NCBI RefSeq assembly: GCF_030464345.1
Contig: NZ_VCYH01000002.1
Location: forward strand, 310,001-374,000
Length of the DNA: 64,000 nt
Origin: Methanoculleus frigidifontis
GTDB lineage: Archaea > Halobacteriota > Methanomicrobia > Methanomicrobiales > Methanoculleaceae
Direction of reading: 5' to 3'
Below the pieces are notes generated by a model. The model had not been told where the DNA came from. It made no database searches and saw nothing but the letters and a program-made list of their open reading frames with translations. How positions within the stretch are numbered: the stretch's first letter is position 1; the number at the start of each line of letters is the position of its first letter. Below are positions 36,961-47,652 of this stretch, piece by piece. The position numbers and the translations under genes were made by a program.

Positions 36961-37746
36961 TTATTCTGCAGGGATGCGGCGGCGCTCTTTCATCCGCATT
37001 CTCTGGTCGTAGACCCGCATCGCCCGCAGAAGATCGATCTTGCGGAACGCCGGCCAGAAGGGGGCGCAGAAGTAGACGGCGGATTCGTGCCCGTTCGCCA
37101 GCCACGGCAGGAAGTTTGAGGTCCTATATTCGCTGCCGGTCCTGACGATGAGATCGACGGGGGGGATGCGCATGCCGCGGTTGAGGTGCCCCTCCACGGT
37201 ATCGGCATCGATCGCGTCCGGGGCGAGGGTGCCGGCCTTCACTTCCCGGAGGATCGAGCGGGCGGCGTGCACGATCTCGTTCCTCCCGCCGTAGGCGAGC
37301 GCGACGTTGACGAAGTAGTTGCTGTATTCCCGTGTTGCGGCCTCGGCGGCCTGCAGCGTCTCCAGGAGATCGGGAGGGAGGAGGGAGCGGTCGCCGATGA
37401 TCTGGACCCGGATTTTGTCGCGGTGCACCCGGGGGTCCTCGATGACGGCACGGAACTTCAGTTTGAAGAGCCGGAAGAGGGCGTCGAGTTCGCCGGTGTC
37501 CCTGCGGAAGTTCTCGGTCGAGAAGGCGTAGAGGGTGATGTGCCGGATCCCGAGCTCGGACGCCCAGTCCAGCACCATCTCGGTGGTGTCGGCGCCCCTC
37601 CGGTGGCCGTCGGCCTTCTGGATCCCGTGGTTCTTGGCGTAGCGGCGGTTGCCGTCCTGGATCACCGCGATGTGCTGCGGGACGTAACGGATCTGGTTCT
37701 TCAGGACGCGTTCGTACAGCGCTTCGAGCCAGGTGCGTGTCTTCAG
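36961..37746 (-). CDS. uppS: cis-prenyltransferase (undecaprenyl diphosphate synthase family), catalytic
   Basis: About 261 residues. The catalytic loop IQDGNRRYAKNHG, then HRRGADTTEMVLDW, LYAFSTENFRR and the terminal RTGSEYRTSNFLPW are all intact. It makes long Z-polyprenyl diphosphates, precursors of the glycosyl carrier lipid. An in-frame GTG at 37665 would cut the conserved helix before the DGN motif. I extend to a CTG at 37746, which overlaps the radical SAM stop and has GAGGTGA 8 nt upstream; an unusual start, so the exact N-terminus is uncertain. Confidence 0.85.
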   Translation of the reverse strand: MKTRTWLEALYERVLKNQIRYVPQHIAVIQDGNRRYAKNHGIQKADGHRRGADTTEMVLDWASELGIRHITLYAFSTENFRRDTGELDALFRLFKLKFRAVIEDPRVHRDKIRVQIIGDRSLLPPDLLETLQAAEAATREYSNYFVNVALAYGGRNEIVHAARSILREVKAGTLAPDAIDADTVEGHLNRGMRIPPVDLIVRTGSEYRTSNFLPWLANGHESAVYFCAPFWPAFRKIDLLRAMRVYDQRMRMKERRRIPAE

Positions 37747-38762
37747 ACCGGCGTCACCTCCACGATCATTCCTCCGTTCGGATAGCGTTCGACGACCTCT
37801 TTTTCACCGGGAAGGTCGTCTGCGTCTTCGACGAGCACCCACCAGGCGGTCTCGATCCGGCCGTCCACCCGCTCGTAGCCGACATCGTCGAGGAGCGGGA
37901 GGATCGCGTCGACCGGGCCGGACGGGGTGAGGACGCCGTAGACGATCGTCCCGTCGTCGGTCACCTCGTCGAACGGTCGGGCAGTATTGTATGCTATCCG
38001 TTTTAACCGTTCCCGTAACTGCACCGAGTCCTTGAACGACGATCCGCACCAGTGCACCTTCGGGCTCGCCGCAACGAGCTCCGCCGCCCAGGAGCGGGAG
38101 TCCGCGACGGCGTTGTGCACCCCGTCCTCCAGGGTAAGATCGCGCTCGCGCATCGCGGCGGCGCAGGTGTCCCCCCACTCGAGTTCGTTGATGTTCAAAA
38201 AGTCGAGGAGCGGGAGCATGGGGATGAGGTGTTCGAGCCCGGGCAGCGCCGGGACCTCGATCCCGACGGCAAAGCCCATCGCCCGGGCACGCCCCGCGGC
38301 CGCGGCCCACGCGCCTTCGCAGATGCCGGGCCAGTCCTCCTGCGGCGGGTGGAGGCGGATCTCGTCGACAAGCCCGGCGAGCCGCCGGAGGGTTTCTTCG
38401 TCCGGCGGGACGCCGGTGTAGAGGTGGATCTGGTGCTCTGCGCCGAAGTGCTCTTTCAGCCGGCTGCAGTATTCGACCACCCGGTCGAGGACGATCAGGG
38501 GTTCGCCGCCGGTGACCCCGGTGCCGAGCGCCTGCATGCTCTCCGCGACCTCGAGCATCTCCTCAGGCGTCTCGATCCGCCGCTCGTTTGCGTAGATGGC
38601 GTCTTTTCCCTTCCGCTCGCGGGAGAGCGGGCAGTACCAGCAGGTGCGCCGGCACCGTCCGGTCACGAAGAGCACCATCTTCGCCCCCTGGTGGCAGAGG
38701 ACGCAGCCGTCGGAGAGCAGCGCTCCGTCCTCATCCCTGTTCTGCACGCGGATCTCTTCCAT
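37743..38762 (-). CDS. Radical SAM protein, archaeal, unknown substrate
   Basis: A 339-residue protein starting MEEIRVQNRDEDG; an upstream in-frame GTG at 38783 is less likely. The radical SAM cluster motif is CRRTCWYC (CxxxCxxC), preceded by another Cys pair (GCVLCHQG). GTGVTGGEPL is the SAM-binding GGEP motif. The C-terminal ~90 residues form a separate domain with no recognised family. Its stop overlaps the probable uppS start, so the two are likely co-expressed; a lipid or tRNA-related substrate is speculation. Confidence 0.85.
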   Translation of the reverse strand: MEEIRVQNRDEDGALLSDGCVLCHQGAKMVLFVTGRCRRTCWYCPLSRERKGKDAIYANERRIETPEEMLEVAESMQALGTGVTGGEPLIVLDRVVEYCSRLKEHFGAEHQIHLYTGVPPDEETLRRLAGLVDEIRLHPPQEDWPGICEGAWAAAAGRARAMGFAVGIEVPALPGLEHLIPMLPLLDFLNINELEWGDTCAAAMRERDLTLEDGVHNAVADSRSWAAELVAASPKVHWCGSSFKDSVQLRERLKRIAYNTARPFDEVTDDGTIVYGVLTPSGPVDAILPLLDDVGYERVDGRIETAWWVLVEDADDLPGEKEVVERYPNGGMIVEVTPV

Positions 38763-38900
38763 GGATACCCATATAGGTTGCACCGAATGCCAGAAAAAAC
38801 CTTGGAGCCTGTCGGCTCCACACGATTCTTTCGAAAATTACCAAATCTGGGAAACATTTTCCCGATTCGGCCGCTTTGCGCGGCACGGATTTTTCCAATA

Positions 38901-38940: not shown

Positions 38941-39900
38941 ATGCCGCACGCTCCTCGCGATGACGCTCTCTCGGAAGTTGTCGGATTTGTGCTGATACTC
39001 GGAGTGCTGGTGCTCGTGATGTCGCTCTACCAGCTCTACGTGGTGCCCGCAGAGGGACGAGAGGACGAGATTGCGCAGATGAACGCTGTAAAGGACATCT
39101 TTACCGATTACAAAATAACGCTAGATTCACTCTGGATGAATGAAGAGAGCGAGACACGCGGGGTAACAACGAGCACGTCATTTCAGCTCGGCACGTTAGG
39201 GTCATCGACGGTGAGCGGCGGCGTAACGATGCCGGTTCTCCGGCCGATAGGGTCAACGGCCATAGTCGAGGTGAATAATCCTGACAGATCAGAAGTTTTC
39301 CGCATATATGAGGGATCCGTCAGCGACGGTGACATAACAGAAGGTAATATTATAGCTGAAATCGATCCGGGAGCGCTCGAATACGAGAGTCAGAATAATT
39401 ACTGGATCCAGCAGGTATACTACTACCAGATGGGCGGCGTCTTTTTAGCGCAGGATTCCGGAACAACGACCCGCATATCACCCCTCATATCGATATACCC
39501 TACAAGAGACGACGTTACATGTGTGGTTATACGCGCCATCCAGATAACCGGCGGAGGTGCCGTCGGCGGCTCGACCCCGGTTCGGGTTGACACCCGTTTC
39601 CGCGATAGCACAGTGACGTACGAACCCGAATCGTACTCTGAAGTAACGCTCCTTTTGGAAACTCCCGACGAAAAAACAGGGAACACATGGCGGAAAATTT
39701 TCACAGAGAGCGCGAAACGCGAGGGGCTCGATGCAGACTGGTATGATATCGATTACTTCGGGGGCGATGCCTCACGCCCCTACATCACGATCTACGGCAA
39801 GAGTGGAGCATCGGACGAAAGCGAGACGGATGTAACTCTCGATTTGAAGCACTATTACTTCGCGGTCACAGTGCAGAACGTAGCCTCTCAAATCGACTAG
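38941..39900 (+). CDS. Type IV pilin-like secreted protein 1
   Basis: A 319-residue protein. A class III (pilin-type) leader with RDDALSEVVGFVLILGVLVL holds the processing site next to Ala-Leu-Ser-Glu and a hydrophobic H-domain (about 10-32). The rest is a beta-rich extracellular part with many Thr/Ser (VRVDTRFRDSTVTYEPESYS). It resembles the archaeal DUF7289-type pilin-like proteins rather than the next three. It is expected to be processed by an archaeal prepilin peptidase and exported or assembled by a type IV pilus-like machine; none is encoded here. Confidence 0.78.
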   Translation: MPHAPRDDALSEVVGFVLILGVLVLVMSLYQLYVVPAEGREDEIAQMNAVKDIFTDYKITLDSLWMNEESETRGVTTSTSFQLGTLGSSTVSGGVTMPVLRPIGSTAIVEVNNPDRSEVFRIYEGSVSDGDITEGNIIAEIDPGALEYESQNNYWIQQVYYYQMGGVFLAQDSGTTTRISPLISIYPTRDDVTCVVIRAIQITGGGAVGGSTPVRVDTRFRDSTVTYEPESYSEVTLLLETPDEKTGNTWRKIFTESAKREGLDADWYDIDYFGGDASRPYITIYGKSGASDESETDVTLDLKHYYFAVTVQNVASQID

Positions 39901-39949
39901 AAAGCGTGTTGCCATCTGAAAAATGTATTATAACCAAGAGGGGATGCAG

Positions 39950-40945
39950 ATGAAGAATGATGACGGAATTTCAGGCACAATGGGGGCGATGCTGCTCGTA
40001 TCGGTGGCGGTCATAGGAGTTGTGGTCGTCGGCGTAACGATGACATCTCAGGATCAGGTTAGTGAAATACCGCAAATAGCGGTAGTCGCGGGATTGGAAA
40101 AAGGTGCAGAAGAGGGTGAGCCAAATACGCTCTACCTCTACCACAGTGGAGGCGACACCCTGAAATGTGGTGATTTTGAGTTAGTGGTAGACGGAATACC
40201 GCGATCGGACTATTGTATTGTCGGAGGCGACGAGGGAACCGACGAGTGGTCGGTCGATACGGCTCTGGAGCTGACTTGCGATACTGAAAACCCAAACGTG
40301 CAGATCATTCATACCAGCACTGGTGTATCCACACTCCTGAAGACAACAGTCCTTGAACCACCGGACACCTCGCCCGAAAATGAAATCCAACCCGATACGG
40401 GATCAATAACAACAGTTCCAAGCCATACTTCTGATGATGATATAATCATCATTGTCGAGCCGGAAGACGGGAGCGAGTATGAACACAATCCAGGTAATGG
40501 ACACAGGGCTCCACTCGACGTGACCGTATGGGTAAAAAAAGGCTATTCGATTAACCGCGTCATACTATCGGCTATTGCAACAACGGCTGAAGACATTAAT
40601 CATAAGGAAGTCACTGCTGTTGAACTGGATCTCGGATCCGGAAGTGACGCCGGGGATGATCGGTATACCAGTTACTCCTATACCTTCTCAGCAGGTTCTG
40701 AACATTTGAATAAACTTACCGGTGGTTCCGGAGACGATAACATTGTACTGACTGCCATCGGACTCGATGCTGACTTAAACGCGTATACGGACAATACGTA
40801 CTTCACCATCCTCTCACAGGGCCCTGGAAATGGTGACGAGGAGGATGAGGAAGGAGGAGATGATGAAGAGGATGAGGAGGAAGATGATGAGGAAGAAGAT
40901 GATGATGGGGACAATCCCGGCAAAAAGAAAGGACAGGACAAATAA
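39950..40945 (+). CDS. Type IV pilin-like protein 2 with acidic tail
   Basis: About 331 residues from ATG 39950; in-frame ATGs at 39923 and 39944 are alternatives, and GAGGGG fits 39950 best. The pilin leader is NDDGISGTMGAMLLVSVAVI. It has the pilin_N (PF07790-like) element LYLYHSGGDTLKCGDFELV shared with proteins 3 and 4. A putative Ig-like region follows (IIIIVEPEDGSEY, VTVWVKKGYSINRVILSA). The C-terminus is an extremely acidic run of Glu/Asp ending in Lys-rich GKKKGQDK. The acidic tail may bind cations or interact with other surface proteins. Confidence 0.75.
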   Translation: MKNDDGISGTMGAMLLVSVAVIGVVVVGVTMTSQDQVSEIPQIAVVAGLEKGAEEGEPNTLYLYHSGGDTLKCGDFELVVDGIPRSDYCIVGGDEGTDEWSVDTALELTCDTENPNVQIIHTSTGVSTLLKTTVLEPPDTSPENEIQPDTGSITTVPSHTSDDDIIIIVEPEDGSEYEHNPGNGHRAPLDVTVWVKKGYSINRVILSAIATTAEDINHKEVTAVELDLGSGSDAGDDRYTSYSYTFSAGSEHLNKLTGGSGDDNIVLTAIGLDADLNAYTDNTYFTILSQGPGNGDEEDEEGGDDEEDEEEDDEEEDDDGDNPGKKKGQDK

Positions 40946-40976: not shown

Positions 40977-42056
40977 ATGAAACAAGGGCTCAACGACCAG
41001 GCAGTCTCCGAACAGATTGCGATCGTCACCATGATCTCCATAGCGGCGCTGGCAGTTGCCATTATCGCGACCCTCCTTCTCTCGCAGCCTGCACCCGGCG
41101 AAATACCCAGAGTCACTGCAGTCATCACGAACGAGAGCGACACCGTGTATCTCTATCATTCCGGCGGCGATATCATCGAAGAAGGTCTCCTCGCAATCCT
41201 TATCGATGGAGAACCGGTCGATATGGCCACCGTGCAGATACGCGGCGGCGACACCCGCTGGCCATGGGAGATCGGTGAGACGCTCGCCGCAACAGACCCC
41301 GGTACCGGCATGCCATTACGCGTCGACCTTGTCTATACGGGGTCCGGCAACAACGTCCTCCTGACAAGCACAACCCTCACCAGGTCTGCAACTCCGGGAG
41401 GCCCCGATACCCCCGGGCCGGGCGACGGCGGCGGGATCGACATCCACTTCGATGACCAGGAGGAACTCGACGCCTGGGTGGTCGACCAGTTCGTCCAGCA
41501 GCTTGAGGCCAACTCGATCTACCTCTACCAGAATGTTCGGAACGATAATGAGGTCTGGGGAAACAGCGGCTTCTTCAACTTCACCATCGCAAAGGCGGAG
41601 TCGTATCTGGAACTGACCGTGAACAACGTCGGAGAGACACCGGATCGAATATCATTCAGCATCGGGGATCGGGTAAGCATCAACCTCGACGACTCCACAA
41701 TGCGGTTCTTTGCCATCGGCAACGGAGGATGGCACACCTTCGCGACCGACGTTGCGATCTATAAAAATAACGTCAGACTGGAAAAGAAAAAGAATCAGGA
41801 ATACAGTTTCATCGTCGGCGGGAGGCTCTACGGGTTCGACGAGTTCGACTCATCAGTGGACATCACAACACAATCAAAACCGCTCCACACGGAGCTCTAC
41901 ATCAACAACACCCCCCTGATAAACAGCACTTGGACAAAGTCAATCACCCTCACTCGCGTGCAGCCGGCACAGCCGACACTGCTGATACTGGATATCTCGA
42001 AGAACGATCCGAACTATATCGTCGGAAACGCAGATTCGATAACGGGTATTGTGTAG
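40977..42056 (+). CDS. Type IV pilin-like protein 3
   Basis: A 359-residue protein. The leader is NDQAVSEQIAIVTMISIAAL with a hydrophobic segment to about residue 37. The pilin_N element is VYLYHSGGDIIEEGLLAIL. A Pro/Gly/Asp linker (about 140-155) leads to a second beta domain (FNFTIAKAESYLELTVNN, then FFAIGNGGWHTFATDV). It follows protein 2 by 31 nt. Confidence 0.75.
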   Translation: MKQGLNDQAVSEQIAIVTMISIAALAVAIIATLLLSQPAPGEIPRVTAVITNESDTVYLYHSGGDIIEEGLLAILIDGEPVDMATVQIRGGDTRWPWEIGETLAATDPGTGMPLRVDLVYTGSGNNVLLTSTTLTRSATPGGPDTPGPGDGGGIDIHFDDQEELDAWVVDQFVQQLEANSIYLYQNVRNDNEVWGNSGFFNFTIAKAESYLELTVNNVGETPDRISFSIGDRVSINLDDSTMRFFAIGNGGWHTFATDVAIYKNNVRLEKKKNQEYSFIVGGRLYGFDEFDSSVDITTQSKPLHTELYINNTPLINSTWTKSITLTRVQPAQPTLLILDISKNDPNYIVGNADSITGIV

Positions 42057-42086: not shown

Positions 42087-43454
42087 ATGATGCAGAACGA
42101 TCGAGCCGTATCCGAGGTTGTCGCAACCGTCCTCCTGATCTCCGTAATCGGACTTGCCGCATCCATCTTTGCTGTCGGGATGATCTCACAATTTGGAAAC
42201 GAGGACCCTCTTCCTGCCGCTAAAATAGACGTCGCTTACGAGGGAGGCACCGTATATATCGAACACCAAGGCGGCGACCCGATCCGCGACGACGAATTAC
42301 GAATACTCATCGACAGCCGCGAGGAAGATTTTTCTGACCAGATAGAAGGGGGCGACTGGTCGATTGGAGAGGTGCTGGAGTACTCCGGCACTCCGGAATT
42401 GGTGCAGGTAATCTACGCTGGGAGCTCGCGGTCGGACCTGCTCTACAGCTTCAGTCAGGTTGCAGGATTTGATTTTGTCTCGTATGTCATCGATGAGAAC
42501 GTCTTTGTTTATGGGAATCAGTTACAATTTGCCGGCAACCAGGTAAATGGCCCCGGTGCTGCGACCATAATAAAAGGCAATCTGATAACAACAGATCTTA
42601 ATGATAATGCCCAACTACTCGTTTCAAATATATACATTGATGGTAATGTGGAATTCACTCGAGGGAGCATAACATTAGGATCAGATACAAACCCCGGCTC
42701 AGTATATATCAATGGCGATTTAAAATTAAAAGTAGCAGGAGATCATGCTTTTTACGGCGACACGTATGTTTCTGGTAGTTTAGATATTGACGAAACCGTA
42801 ACCCCGACATTTTATGGTAATGTGTACGTTAAAGAAAATGTAAACCTACGCAATGGAGATATTTACGGCGATTTATATCAAGGAGGAGATCTGTATTTAA
42901 AGAGTGCACGCACTCGGGGTAATGTTTATGTTAACGGTAACGTCCAATTGGATAGGACTCCCACTGTAGACAAACAAATAGAATATACAGGAGGTTTGAC
43001 AAAACCAGGCGGGTACCCCAAAGCAATTCTCGATAAGTGTATTCAGACACCACACGTTCCGGAAGTCCCCGGTTTTGAGATCCCAAATCTCGACATACCT
43101 CCCGTGAAATCTGCTGATTGGTACTCAGACCACGGATATGTATCAGGGGGTGATTTGAGCAGCAACATGAAAATTTTTGCTGATAGTTACACACTCAGTA
43201 AACATTGGTCGACAACTGCTGCTGAAAATGTAATAATTGTAGCAAGCAACGGGGATATTAGTCTAACCGGCTACTGGGATATCGATATTGAAGGAGTGTT
43301 ATTCGCACCCAATGGAAAGGTGTCTTTTGGAGGGGGATCATTCGAAGGATTGGTCATTGCAAGGGACGGTTTCTTTGTCACCAGCGGTGGGTCCACAGTG
43401 ACCTTTAAAAATTTCGAGGAATATTTCGATAGCCCCGAGGATTATCCATTCTAA
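42087..43454 (+). CDS. Type IV pilin-like protein 4 with bactofilin-like beta-helix
   Basis: A 455-residue protein. The pilin leader is NDRAVSEVVATVLLISVIGL and the pilin_N element VYIEHQGGDPIRDDELRIL. From about residue 135 to 300 there are short repeated strands with N-G-x-x-x-V turns (GNVYVKENVNLRNGDIYGDL, GNVYVNGNVQLDR), typical of a right-handed beta-helix or bactofilin-like polymer domain. A second beta region follows (VIIVASNGDISLTGYWDIDI). From base about 42480 onward the gene is clearly more AT-rich than its first third and its neighbours, suggesting the beta-helix part was grafted onto a resident pilin leader. Confidence 0.75.
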   Translation: MMQNDRAVSEVVATVLLISVIGLAASIFAVGMISQFGNEDPLPAAKIDVAYEGGTVYIEHQGGDPIRDDELRILIDSREEDFSDQIEGGDWSIGEVLEYSGTPELVQVIYAGSSRSDLLYSFSQVAGFDFVSYVIDENVFVYGNQLQFAGNQVNGPGAATIIKGNLITTDLNDNAQLLVSNIYIDGNVEFTRGSITLGSDTNPGSVYINGDLKLKVAGDHAFYGDTYVSGSLDIDETVTPTFYGNVYVKENVNLRNGDIYGDLYQGGDLYLKSARTRGNVYVNGNVQLDRTPTVDKQIEYTGGLTKPGGYPKAILDKCIQTPHVPEVPGFEIPNLDIPPVKSADWYSDHGYVSGGDLSSNMKIFADSYTLSKHWSTTAAENVIIVASNGDISLTGYWDIDIEGVLFAPNGKVSFGGGSFEGLVIARDGFFVTSGGSTVTFKNFEEYFDSPEDYPF

Positions 43455-43893: not shown

Positions 43894-44028
43894 GTTAGTT
43901 CATCTAAATCACATGAGGTATAACCGTGACGAATATTTTTGCAGAACTCCCACACTGCCCGCAGCACCAATTCCACCGAGCGTGCTCGCCGGCCAAACAT
44001 TAATCATTTGCCAAGCCGACAATCCTGT

Positions 44029-44733
44029 GTGGCGGATGATTTCTTTATAAGTTACAATACAGCCGATAAATCGTGGGCGAAGTGGGTCGCGTGGGCGTTA
44101 GAAGAAAAGAACTACTCAGTAAGAATTGATGATTGGGATTTCCAACCTGGAAATAACTTTGTTAACCGGATGGACAACGCCTTAAAAAAGGCAAACGTGA
44201 TGCTTCTGATTTTATCACCGGATTATCTTGATTCTGAGTATTGTCAGGCAGAATGGACATCAAAATTTTGTGAAGATTCCACGGGCGAACAAAGAAAAAT
44301 AATCCCAATAATGGTTCGTGAAACAGTCCTATCCGGCCTTCTTAAGGCGATAATACATATCAATTTAGTTAGCCTCAATGAAGATCAAGCAAAGGAGAGG
44401 TTGTTGCAAGGCATCTCACAGGAGAGGGGAAAACCATCACATCCACCTCCTTTCCCAGGAAAGGAAACAGCATTGGAAAAACCCAAGTTCCCAGGAGTTA
44501 CTGGAAAACTATTGCGCAGACCATGTGCTTATTGTCGCGGCACAGGGAAAGATCCAACGAAGCCAATATTAATACCTGCCCCATGTCCAGTATGCAATGG
44601 AAACAAGGAAAACGAAGTTCCATCATCAGCAAGACCATGCAACTTTTGTGATCAAAGCGGCAGGGACCCTGCTTCCCCATTAATTATGCCAGAACCCTGT
44701 CGAATATGTAAAGGTTCCGGATTTAGATTGTGA
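44029..44733 (+). CDS. TIR-domain protein with C-terminal DnaJ-like zinc finger
   Basis: A 234-residue protein from a GTG at 44029. A TATA-like ATTAATCA lies about 28 nt upstream, which argues for a leaderless start; upstream frame has no coding character. The TIR domain spans about 2-125: FFISYNTADKSWAKWVAWAL, then IDDWDFQPGNNF and SEYCQAEW, whose Glu75 is the likely NADase residue. The C-terminal 70 residues carry four CxxC knuckles in two repeats: CAYCRGTG with CPVCNGN, and CNFCDQSG with CRICKGSG. Each has the DnaJ-type CxxCxGxG layout and a DP-x-x-P linker. TIR domains of this type cleave NAD+ in defence; the zinc finger may bind a protein or peptide ligand. Confidence 0.85.
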   Translation: MADDFFISYNTADKSWAKWVAWALEEKNYSVRIDDWDFQPGNNFVNRMDNALKKANVMLLILSPDYLDSEYCQAEWTSKFCEDSTGEQRKIIPIMVRETVLSGLLKAIIHINLVSLNEDQAKERLLQGISQERGKPSHPPPFPGKETALEKPKFPGVTGKLLRRPCAYCRGTGKDPTKPILIPAPCPVCNGNKENEVPSSARPCNFCDQSGRDPASPLIMPEPCRICKGSGFRL

Positions 44734-45046
44734 TTAGGCAACAGTCATTTAAAATCCCGCCAACCCCCTCCGAAAAAAACCACCCTCACAGAAGCCCACA
44801 GACAGCCGATCTCTGCCCCGCCCATACCAGACACCCTTCAAAAATTACCCTCGCTCATATCGCCAATATAACCCTCGGATCCTGCCGCATTTCGCGAATC
44901 GAAGCGATATCCTCCGCCCAATCCCCAGGCCGTGATCCGCCCTCGGCAACCTTCGCGAAAATCGAAAAATAACGCTGAATTGCCCCTCTTTTCACCCGGT
45001 GCGAGGGCGACCCCGCCCGGCCCCGCCGGGAATGCGCCAGGGCTGC
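44733..45046 (+). repeat. Dispersed ~324-bp repeat, copy B
   Basis: The first unit of a tandem pair directly behind the TIR gene stop. It aligns with copies A and C-E through ACCCTCACAGAAGCCCACAG, CATACCAGACACCC, TTACCCTCGCTCATATCGCC, the CCCAATCCCCAGGCC block and a CGAAAATCGAAAAATAA end. Its 5' promoter-like block is degenerate. The distance to the same point in copy C is 324 bp. Confidence 0.8.
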
Positions 45047-45330
45047 CGTTTCGGTAAAGCAACGTTTACATACCTGCACTCCACCCAAAGCTGCCGAAAA
45101 AAACGACCCTCATAGATGCCCGCAGACGGCCGATCCCGGGGTGGGCCATAGGAAACATCCTTGGAAAATTACCATCGATCATATCGCCGGTATGGCCTCG
45201 CGATCCTGGCGCTTTTCAGGGATCGGGGCGATATGATCCGTTTAATTCCTGAGGCGAGATCCGCCATCCGGGATCTTCGCTAAAATCGAAAAATAACCCC
45301 GATTCACCCCTCTTTTCATCCACTGAGAAG
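45047..45330 (+). repeat. Dispersed ~324-bp repeat, copy C
   Basis: The second unit of the first tandem pair. It starts with CTGCCGTTTCGGTAAAGCAA and a TATA-like TTTACATA. The anchor GAAAAAAACGACCCTCATAG is 324 bp after the same point in copy B. Its 3' end overlaps the stop of the convergent ATPase gene (45316). The conserved hairpin position reads CCTG...CAGG. Confidence 0.8.
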
Positions 45331-46701
45331 GTGGCCCCCGGTGCACGCCGCCTCGATGTCCGCAAGATCGTAGACGAGGAACCCCTCCGCCCGGAGCCGG
45401 TCCTTCCCCTCAACGCCGCCGGCGACAAGACAGAAGCGTTCGCTGCGGCACTGCTCGTGCCGGACGTGCTCCGCCTTCTGCACGAGCCGCGTGAGCAGGC
45501 CGCGGGCCTTCCGCTCGGTAAGATTCCCCCACTTGCATTCCCCAAAGATGATGCTCCCGTCACGCTCCCGGACGGCGACCAGGTCGATCTCCTCGCCGCG
45601 GTACCACCACCGCCCGACGGTGTAGCCCGGCAGGAAGGTTCGGGCGAACTCGCTGCGCACAAAGGCCTCGAACCGCTTGCCGAAGTAGGGGTTCAGATCG
45701 ACGGCATCCGCAGGGTGGTTCTCCATCTCGATCGCCTGTCGGCGTGCGAAGACGAAGTTGTACCAGAAGTCGAAGACAGCGTCCCGGATCCGGTACACTC
45801 CCTGCCGCCGGCTGCCGAGCAGGGGCAGCTCCTTTTCGATGATCCCGAGCCGGGTCATCGCCTCGAGGTAGGGGTAGAGGTGGCGGGCGTCCATGCCGCA
45901 GAACTGGGCGATCGTGCCGGGCGCGGTGTTGCCGACGGCGACGGCATTGAGGATCGCCTGGTAGGTCTTCAGCTCCCGAAACTCCTGCGAGAGGAGAAAG
46001 GAGGGCTCCCGGTAGAAGTAGCCGTATCGATTGAAGAATTCCCGCTCGACGAAGGCCGCGTAGCCTGGGTAGTCGGCGGCCTTGAGGAGGTACTCGGGGA
46101 TGCCGCCGATGGTCAGGTGCGCCTTGAGGGCGTCCTGAAAGGAGAATGAAGGGAGTAGTTTTCGTGCATCCGCGAACCGCAGCGGCCCAAGAAGCATGTC
46201 GCGGGTCCGCCGCCCGTAGAGCGGAGAGGTGTAGGAGAGGGCGGTGTCGGTCATCAGCCCGAGCATCGACCCGGAGAGGAGGATGCACCAGTTCGACTCT
46301 GCAAGAGCGGTATCCCAGGCCTTCTGGAGGGCGGAGAGGATGGCCGGATCGTTCTTGATCAGATAGGTGAACTCGTCGATGACGAGGTAGCGCCGCTCCG
46401 GAAGAGGTTTTTGCGCGAGGTAGGTGAAGAGCTGGTCCCAGGTCGCAAGTTCGAGCGAGCCGAGGAGCGTGTCGGCGAAGAACCGTGCCATCTCCTCCTG
46501 CAGCCGCCGGATCTGGATCTGCGGTGCGGTGTCCTCGGCGAAGTGGAGAATGCCCTCCTTGCCGCGGATGAACTCGGTGACGAGCCGGGTCTTACCGATC
46601 CGGCGGCGGCCGTAGAGGATGATCAACCGCCCGCCGCCCTTCCGCCACTCCTCCTCGAGGAGAGCGCGCTCGGTCTCGCGGTCGACGAACTCCCTAATCA
46701 T
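45316..46701 (-). CDS. Archaeal ATPase (DEXX-type with DUF234)
   Basis: A 461-residue protein. Walker A is LYGRRRIGKT at about 30-39 and Walker B YLVIDEFTYL near 105. GSMLGLMTD follows as sensor region. A winged-helix region (TIAQFCGMDARHLYPYLEAM) and a C-terminal DUF234 nuclease-like domain follow, with GRWWYRGEEIDLVAV, IIFGECKWGN and later KAEHVRH. The E-x-D...E-x-K arrangement fits a PD-(D/E)XK-like fold. These ATPases are very common in archaea, with a proposed role in mobile or defence-related functions but none proven. It is bracketed by tandem pairs of the 324-bp repeat. Confidence 0.9.
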   Translation of the reverse strand: MIREFVDRETERALLEEEWRKGGGRLIILYGRRRIGKTRLVTEFIRGKEGILHFAEDTAPQIQIRRLQEEMARFFADTLLGSLELATWDQLFTYLAQKPLPERRYLVIDEFTYLIKNDPAILSALQKAWDTALAESNWCILLSGSMLGLMTDTALSYTSPLYGRRTRDMLLGPLRFADARKLLPSFSFQDALKAHLTIGGIPEYLLKAADYPGYAAFVEREFFNRYGYFYREPSFLLSQEFRELKTYQAILNAVAVGNTAPGTIAQFCGMDARHLYPYLEAMTRLGIIEKELPLLGSRRQGVYRIRDAVFDFWYNFVFARRQAIEMENHPADAVDLNPYFGKRFEAFVRSEFARTFLPGYTVGRWWYRGEEIDLVAVRERDGSIIFGECKWGNLTERKARGLLTRLVQKAEHVRHEQCRSERFCLVAGGVEGKDRLRAEGFLVYDLADIEAACTGGHLLSG

Positions 46702-46796: not shown

Positions 46797-47119
46797 CTCG
46801 CGGCTGCCGTTTTGGTTAAGCAATCCTTACATATCAGTAATTCCGGGCCAACCCCCCAAAAAAACCACCTCCACAGAAGCCCCCAGACGGCCGATCTCGA
46901 CCTCACCCATACCGGACATCCTCAAAAAATTACCCTCCCGCATATCGCCGCTACGGCCTTACGATACTGTCATATTTCGGCAATCCGGGCAAAATCCTCC
47001 GCCCAATCCCCAGGCCGGGATCCGTCATCAGGAACAGTCGCGAAAATCGAAAAAGAACGCCGATTTAACCCCATTTTCAGGCTTCGGGGGGGCGACACCA
47101 CCCGGCCCCGCCGGGCATG
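46797..47119 (+). repeat. Dispersed ~324-bp repeat, copy D
   Basis: The first unit of the second tandem pair, upstream of the ATPase gene. It begins GCGGCTGCCGTTTTGGTTAA with TATA-like CTTACATA. The hairpin site reads TGTCA-TATTT-CGGCA (46968-46982). The anchor (46856) is exactly 324 bp before that of copy E, the same period as B to C. Confidence 0.8.
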
Positions 47120-47420
47120 CGCCAGGGCTGCCGTTTCGGTAAAGCAACGTTTAAATACCCCCACTCCACCCGGAGCTGCCGAAAAAAACGACCCTCATAG
47201 ATGCCCTCAGACGGCCGATCGCGGCCCCGTCCATACCAGACATCCTTGAAAAATTACCCTCCCGCATATAGGCGATATGGCCCTCGGATCCTGCCGTTTC
47301 CCGGCAATCGGGACGATATTCTTCGCCTAATTCCAGGACCGGGATCCGCCGTATGAAACGGGCGGTAAAATCGAAAAATAAACCCGGAATACCCTTCTTT
47401 TCACCCGTCGGGAGGGCGAC
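47120..47420 (+). repeat. Dispersed ~324-bp repeat, copy E
   Basis: The second unit of the second pair. It has CTGCCGTTTCGGTAAAGCAA, the best TATA-like box of the family (CGTTTAAATACC), the ACCCTCATAGATGCCC block, hairpin TGCCG-TTTCC-CGGCA (47292-47306) and the AAAATCGAAAAATAA end. The 230 bp to vapB beyond it hold no gene. Confidence 0.8.
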
Positions 47421-47652
47421 CCCGGGGCACTCCCCACAGCCCGGGGAGCCAGCCCTCGCCAACCTCCGGAGTCCCGACCCGATACTGCGGCATGCCGGGG
47501 CAAAGGCACGGTCCGGCAGGGTATCCGGGGTTGCCGGAGTGTATTGCGGCACCCCAGAACCGGCGAAGAACGATCCCGACGAAAACCTCCCGGCCGGACG
47601 AGGCGCCGAAGAGCGCGAGATCATAAATACACATACATACACATACACAGGC

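Follow-up and report, generated by a model that had tools for sequence, protein, structure and literature searches.

A modular archaeal pilin with a tapirin-like β-helix, a probable pilus adhesin, in Methanoculleus frigidifontis and its relatives

The tapirins of Caldicellulosiruptor are described as proteins by which cells attach to lignocellulose (PMC9933333). ComZ of Thermus thermophilus is reported as a DNA-binding pilin and proposed tip receptor; its large β-solenoid separates the final two strands of a bacterial pseudopilin-like domain and was argued to fit only at the tip of the pilus (PMC6561018). Modular pilins are represented by PilB and PilC of Streptococcus sanguinis and by a survey of bacteria, the main text of which is without the word archaea; the modules reported there include PA14 and PF13385 (LamG_3) (PMC8179133). 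The main text of a 2016 survey of archaeal type IV pili mentions neither β-helices nor PKD (PMC4858521). No account of the protein family described here was found in the openly licensed literature, judged from listings.

The window (the whole 64,000-nucleotide stretch of Methanoculleus frigidifontis DNA that was analyzed) encodes a protein in which an archaeal pilin is followed by a β-helix. Modular pilins are already known, and an archaeal chassis with a tapirin-like head is best read as a variant of them. Unlike the surveyed bacterial proteins, the window protein has an archaeal chassis, and a single module occurs here on both archaeal and bacterial chassis.

Domain layout and fold of the predicted protein

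The gene and its parts are as follows.
42087..43454, plus strand: modular pilin gene, 455 amino acids, a single uninterrupted open reading frame (ORF list, Pfam, AlphaFold2 and fold match)
42087..42107, plus strand: predicted prepilin leader, residues 1 to 7 (the Pilin_N match begins at residue 6)
42099..42191, plus strand: N-terminal hydrophobic helix, residues 5 to 35, which in type IV pilins forms the filament core (AlphaFold2)
42219..42455, plus strand: pilin β-sandwich head, residues 45 to 123 (AlphaFold2 and fold match)
42453..42468, plus strand: compositional change points at the domain junction (42459), for GC3 at 42453 and for GC at 42468 (permutation test)
42459..43451, plus strand: conserved C-terminal module, residues 125 to 455, 331 amino acids (alignment, AlphaFold2 and fold match)
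42747..42857, plus strand, approximate placing: extra solenoid turns, about residues 221 to 257, absent in most relatives (alignment)

Pilin_N (PF07790) matches residues 6 to 78 with 56.3 bits (cut-off, 25.2), and the leader is presumably cleaved between A7 and V8, judging from class III signal motifs. The AlphaFold2 model (mean pLDDT, 90.2; pTM, 0.71) was built on a shallow alignment of 27 rows, and the angle that it gives between pilin and β-helix is unreliable. The model has the long N-terminal helix and β-sandwich head of a pilin, followed by a β-helix at residues 139 to 440; pilin module and separate non-pilin module thus share one chain. The initial annotation had read the gene as a type IV pilin leader joined to a β-helix and had named structure prediction as one check; the Pilin_N match and the model, in which no different fold appeared, bear this reading out.

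At 331 amino acids, the module is longer than in most relatives, where it has about 290; two homologues of family f2 (L055 and L066) have extra turns at the same stretch as the window protein. The residues that never vary in a 16-row alignment of archaeal and bacterial sequences include W345, Y351, P408, and G410 (numbered W221, Y227, P284, and G286 in the alignment). Near the C terminus, pAdhesive_15 (PF20597) exceeds its cut-off (26.0 versus 23.8 bits), with a best stretch that covers profile positions 180 to 245 of 254 only, and DUF7305 (PF23981) stays under its own (24.6 versus 27 bits); the best stretches of both span only about 55 to 75 residues. The source genome contains one copy of the module and one further weak match, on contig C2 (E = 5.9e-4).

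The solved structures most similar to the β-helix are the C-terminal, cellulose-binding domains of tapirins (6n2c, Z 20.4; 4wa0, Z 20.0; 6n2b, Z 19.7), which superpose on the model with an rmsd of 3.2 to 3.8 Å over 274 to 279 residues, and ComZ (6qvi) comes after them at Z 11.3. The pilin part (residues 6 to 126) matches a Haloferax pilus subunit (8fj5) at Z 11.0 over 120 residues. Foldseek gives the same order (8fj5, E = 1.4e-4; 6n2c, E = 2.2e-4), with low whole-chain TM-scores for the query (0.20 and 0.35). A bacterial homologue from Halalkalibacter was also modeled (mean pLDDT, 76.9; β-helix mostly above 90, pilin part mostly poor), and tapirins were again first (Z 17.1, 16.4, and 16.1), followed by ComZ (Z 12.1) and DUF3494-type ice-binding proteins (Z 8.7 to 10.0). 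The fold is therefore shared with tapirins in two predicted models, at Z 16 to 20 over 243 to 279 residues. The likeness concerns tapirin C-terminal domains; the window protein has an archaeal pilin leader and head. In repeat proteins, Z values below about 13 may reflect a common arrangement; because ComZ falls in this doubtful range, with unrelated β-helices at about Z 10 beside it, we regard the match to tapirins as firm and that to ComZ as only suggestive.

Profiles A3 and A4 yielded no tapirin at an E value of ≤10 among PDB sequences, in a search whose HMMER filters can miss weak matches. The best match of the wider profile, A4, was formylmethanofuran dehydrogenase subunit C, another β-solenoid (E = 1.2e-5), which may be a matter of repeat likeness. 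As the sequence profiles give no tapirin, the tie between module and tapirins is one of fold and not of proven descent.

ComZ is likewise a pilin with a large β-solenoid, and the β-helix might, by this likeness, be a tip receptor that takes up DNA. ComZ is the next solved pilin after the tapirins in both fold lists, and its DNA binding (PMC6561018) would fit such a role; tapirins are nevertheless by far the better fold match. The topology also differs, as the ComZ solenoid is inserted within the pilin sheet and the β-helix of the window protein lies downstream of it, the modeled sandwich being complete at residues 45 to 123. A DNA receptor of this kind seems quite improbable.

In the initial annotation, the β-helix was likened to bactofilins and was thought to polymerize by itself into a surface filament. 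Bactofilins (PF04519) are cytosolic or membrane-attached scaffolds without a pilin leader. They have a parallel β-helix in common with the window protein; Bactofilin matches were found in 2 of 38 homologues (best E value, 2.7e-4), and the bactofilin 6ria appeared at E = 1.6 in the profile search of PDB sequences. In contrast, Pfam gives no Bactofilin match to the window protein at E ≤ 1, tapirins head the fold matches of both models, and the protein has a pilin head and a Pilin_N leader and would be secreted, not cytosolic. The model further places a short helix (residues 130 to 136) ahead of the first β-helix strand and long strands (391 to 407 and 411 to 425) after the coil, which, together with the conserved DYPF end, look like caps. 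No bactofilin occurred among the best 50 fold matches (VIA) of either model, which excludes nothing alone. Bactofilin was rejected as the family of the module on the missing Pfam match (E ≤ 1), the two matches among 38 homologues (E ≤ 0.01), and the leading position of tapirins. Self-polymerization is wrong or unproven, given the tapirin-like fold and the probable caps, and a bactofilin-like surface filament is very improbable as an explanation of the protein.

Pectate lyases and isopullulanase are found lower in the fold lists, as would be expected if the pilus bore an enzyme that degrades polysaccharides in the manner of pectate lyases. Their Z values of about 5 to 7 lie in the doubtful range of the tool and far below those of tapirins, and the window protein has no Pfam lyase match at E ≤ 1; we give an enzymatic role hardly any credence at all.

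Operon, assembly machinery, and probable role

Four genes that share a strand make up the cluster: a DUF7289 pilin-like gene, two Pilin_N genes, and, in the final position, the β-helix pilin gene. A divergent gene lies upstream.
37743..38783, minus strand: radical SAM gene, the conserved divergent upstream neighbor, used as a marker of the site with no pilus role claimed (Pfam and locus comparison)
38941..39900, plus strand: DUF7289 pilin-like gene, first in the operon (DUF7289, 33.3 bits against a cut-off of 27; Pilin_N, 19.3 bits, under its cut-off)
39923..40945, plus strand: pilin gene of the operon, with an acidic tail (Pilin_N, 42.6 bits)
40977..42056, plus strand: pilin gene of the operon (Pilin_N, 40.6 bits)

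The four pilin-like genes counted in the initial annotation are therefore three that exceed the Pilin_N cut-off and a first that is better described by DUF7289. The protein of 39923..40945 ends in a 27-residue run with 23 Glu or Asp residues, the rest being Gly, followed by a short basic tail.

This arrangement is conserved. Archaeal module loci numbered 48, comprising 30 module loci of relatives, 12 of the 29 archaeal loci in named genomes, 5 further loci, and the window, and do not all represent independent species. In 43 of them, a homologue of the DUF7289 gene precedes the β-helix gene on the same strand; it is missing at L046, L049, L097, and L099, where the gene is at a contig end, and at L126 (genome G379). 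The divergent radical SAM gene is present in 40 and is missing at the same five loci and at L045, L115, and L128 (short or contig-end stretches).

The cluster has no assembly ATPase of its own, as had been annotated. T2SSE matches in the source genome are on contigs C1, C4, and C6 and T2SSF matches on C4 and C6, none of them the contig of the window (C2). Genes for ATPase and platform adjoin at C4:179.7-182.3 kb and C6:101.9-104.7 kb. With these genes away from the pilin cluster, a machine acting in trans must be assumed.

The window protein is likely a modular minor pilin, composed of an archaeal type IV pilin (residues 1 to 124) and a tapirin-like β-helix (residues 125 to 455), that serves as an adhesin on the pilus, probably at its tip. 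In the proposed mechanism, prepilin peptidase would trim the leader, the N-terminal helix would become part of the core of a type IV pilus, built by an ATPase-platform machine whose genes lie in another part of the genome, and the bulky β-helix would be exposed on the outside, most likely at the tip or close to it, where it could bind an insoluble or cell-surface ligand. The tip position is drawn from gene order and from analogy with ComZ and with what is reported on modular pilins (PMC8179133, PMC10191384); by that analogy the tip is probable, and a position in the shaft or on the cell body is possible. The surface adhesin suggested in the initial annotation probably holds, given the pilin leader and the tapirin-like β-helix.

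An adhesin could also do without a filament, the pilin leader being a mere membrane anchor that holds the β-helix at the cell surface or S-layer. A cluster with no ATPase or platform gene and the large head of 331 amino acids would suit such an arrangement. We consider it unlikely, as a pilin head that resembles the Haloferax pilus subunit (Z 11.0) is kept beside the helix and the module stays among pilin genes in both domains of life.

Occurrence and exchange of the β-helix module

The architecture is common across Methanomicrobiales, though patchy, and recurs in Bacillota. Some part of the protein was matched in 74 of 100 relatives, many of them in the pilin part only. With a profile of the module only, 52 of 232 Methanomicrobiales genomes matched, from 12 of 40 genera (E ≤ 1e-10), and one of the 52 (G028) has merely a 37-residue piece at a contig end. 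Genome G001, the sole congener examined, gave no module match, and uniform conservation across the genus, which the initial annotation had set against its own proposal, was thus not seen. Among 392 genomes drawn from the phylum, 36 matched (E ≤ 1e-3), 26 of these at E < 1e-60; the strong matches are all from Methanomicrobiales except that of G379 (family f8), and the other ten are short (E values of 1.6e-7 to 8e-4).

A contig scan with the window protein as sole query returned no relative, and one with an alignment as query returned 38 loci in named genomes. Methanomicrobiales account for 29 of these (Methanoculleus, Methanocalculus, Methanofollis, Methanogenium, Methanoregula, and others) and Bacillota for nine (a Pelotomaculum MAG, Halalkalibacter, Cytobacillus, a Clostridiaceae MAG, Fusibacter, two Clostridia MAGs, Evansella, and Alteribacillus). 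The bacterial count is a lower bound because the scan requires exact short patterns. Scans of viral contigs gave no relative.

The module is C-terminal in 38 archaeal homologues, most of which have DYPF, or a sequence very like it, as their end. Of these homologues, 36 have Pilin_N; the other two (L046 and L049) start at 10 and 93 bases, respectively, from the end of a contig. The spacing between pilin and module ranges from zero, in the window protein, to about 930 amino acids. Added domains are PKD (29 of 38), LamG_3 (6), PA14 (4), GLEYA (4), and InlK_D3 (4), the second and third of which are also modules of the bacterial pilins; they are placed, as a group and not by individual mapping, in the variable middle because both ends are conserved. 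The first four are domains of binding type and speak for an adhesive role. DUF7305 was matched in 22 of 38 homologues (E ≤ 0.01).

Two archaeal genes have actual or possible breaks. In G379 (L126:6944-8587, minus strand; family f8), a gene for an archaeal pilin, PKD (by eye), and β-helix has a single in-frame TAG just ahead of the β-helix, which points either to pyrrolysine or to a broken gene. In Methanogenium cariaci (L124:8647-9862), the β-helix gene is split into two overlapping ORFs of 189 and 224 amino acids and is therefore frame-broken in the genome or in the assembly.

The histories of the pilin and β-helix parts conflict. In a tree of 60 pilin modules, the presence of the β-helix switches eight times, at least five of them by starred branches. 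In G001, the pilin nearest to that of the window protein in the tree (90/90, unstarred) is a 162-amino-acid protein (L038:8131-8619; 35% identical), also the fourth gene of its operon, which stops about 15 residues beyond the expected start of the β-helix. In G005, the pilin closest to the β-helix pilin of G006 (100/99) is also without the β-helix. The β-helix data reject the pilin clade of L058, L065, and L073 (p-AU, 0.0002; 0.001 with the window added), and the pilin data reject the β-helix clade of L063, L047 (three), and L073 (p-AU, 2e-83); a third group, of five f6 rows, is rejected by neither data set (0.117 and 0.214). These p-values are too good since the groups were chosen after the trees had been seen; 2e-83 is extreme nonetheless. 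The conflict between the trees, together with a counterpart pilin in G001 that ends near the β-helix start, shows that shuffling of modules is real. The β-helix is an exchangeable head, borne by different pilins of the operon across Methanomicrobiales, with or without PKD, LamG, or PA14 ahead of it.

Capture of the domain, as first annotated, thus stands as domain shuffling and not as an event peculiar to the source genome. The branch joining the window to family f2 (85/96) is not firm, because a tree held to the non-f2 placement is 1.8 log units better than the free tree. The window and family f1 as one module clade were not rejected (p-AU, 0.217), and neither was the window with all non-f2 rows (p-AU, 0.572). 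A one-off recent capture by the source genome was set aside as unproven, since 52 of 232 genomes have the module, the fall in GC described below is widespread, and vertical descent is not rejected.

The Bacillota carry the module on their own pilins. N_methyl, the bacterial pilin leader, exceeds its cut-off in all nine loci, at L113 within a separate overlapping ORF. In this Cytobacillus locus (L113:8472-9993), pilin leader and β-helix lie in overlapping ORFs of different frames. Genes of the type IV pilus machinery occur within the fetched stretch of seven of the nine loci: T2SSE ATPase at L112, L118, L119, L120, and L123 (451 to 482 bits), with T2SSF also at L119, and prepilin peptidase at L113 and L122. 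No machinery gene was found among the ORFs scored in the fetched stretches of L105 (a 6.9-kb contig) and L121. Further PilT, PilM, PilN, and PilO genes near the bacterial loci were named by eye. Adjacent ORFs exceed the N_methyl cut-off at L105, L112, L118, L120, and L123, where one ORF each was tried. A further ORF in L105, a further one in L112, and the ORF tried in L121 had no N_methyl match. The Pelotomaculum MAG, of syntroph type (L105:1731-4433), has a bacterial pilin leader on the module and the further N_methyl gene behind it.

The Pelotomaculum module is 61% identical to that of a Methanoculleus homologue (L056; 286 columns) and 46% identical to that of the window protein. The nine bacterial modules form no single clade in the tree, which has unsettled bootstrap values and two long bacterial branches; a single bacterial clade is not rejected (p-AU, 0.282). 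As bacteria bear the same domain on their own, different pilins, the β-helix seems to be an adhesive part traded between archaeal and bacterial pili.

More speculatively, the tapirin-type β-helix could be a portable adhesin for the tips of type IV pili, passing between archaea and bacteria and changing its chassis, so that one module is mounted on archaeal pilins in Methanomicrobiales and on bacterial GxTLIEL-type pilins in Bacillota, a possibility that we entertain without expecting it to hold. If it were true, hydrogenotrophic methanogens and their bacterial partners might grip the same fibers or each other. To our knowledge, the attachment of methanogens to particles, fibers, and syntrophic partners is poorly known. 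For an entire order, the family offers a candidate adhesin with a structural basis, a clear operon, and an exchangeable head, and it connects tapirins, bacterial modular pilins, and archaeal pili, which have so far been studied apart. The roles of head and chassis are separable, since the same adhesive module occurs on two different pilin chassis, and there are natural pairs with and without the module, e.g., two species of the source genus.

Base composition and neighboring genes

Within the gene, GC falls from 0.551 to 0.419 at a change point at 42468, matched in strength by 1 of 2,000 codon permutations, and GC3 falls from 0.648 to 0.369 at 42453, matched by none of 2,000. Amino acid content accounts for only about 0.03 of the 0.13 fall in GC (expected values of 0.626 versus 0.596 when the codon usage of five genes from the window is applied). 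The AT-rich turn described in the initial annotation is thus present at the domain junction; the first part of the gene, however, is not particularly GC rich as had been stated, as its GC of 0.551 is below the window mean of 0.584. The AT-rich stretch runs past the gene, and the next gene, a TIR gene (43939-44733), has a GC of 0.446.

GC falls from pilin to module in 33 of 36 archaeal homologues, counting that of the window (mean of the 36, 0.554 to 0.491), and GC3 falls in 31 of the 36; L046 and L049, with fewer than 100 codons ahead of the module, are left out of this comparison. GC3 has a clear change point (≤2 of 200 permutations) in 12 of the 36; 11 of the 12 are falls, and 7 lie within 30 codons of the module start. 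The window protein has the largest fall in GC3 from pilin to module among the 36 (0.64 to 0.37), which counts toward capture. Because most relatives have the break too, it does not by itself show a recent capture, and rather marks a module with its own history than dates its acquisition.

The TIR gene downstream matches TIR_2 at 115 bits and has a DnaJ-like zinc finger C terminus and weak PADLOC matches to TIR defense proteins. Beyond it, four copies of a sequence of about 300 nucleotides (44767-45066, 45091-45390, 46852-47151, and 47176-47475; 66 to 80% identical to the first) form two pairs with a spacing of 324 nucleotides that lie around an AAA ATPase/DUF234 gene (45316-46701, minus strand). 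The region is possibly a mobile or duplicated island. The ATPase matches the PADLOC candidate PDC-S27 at 117 bits, and together with the TIR gene it may form a small defense island adjoining the pilin operon.
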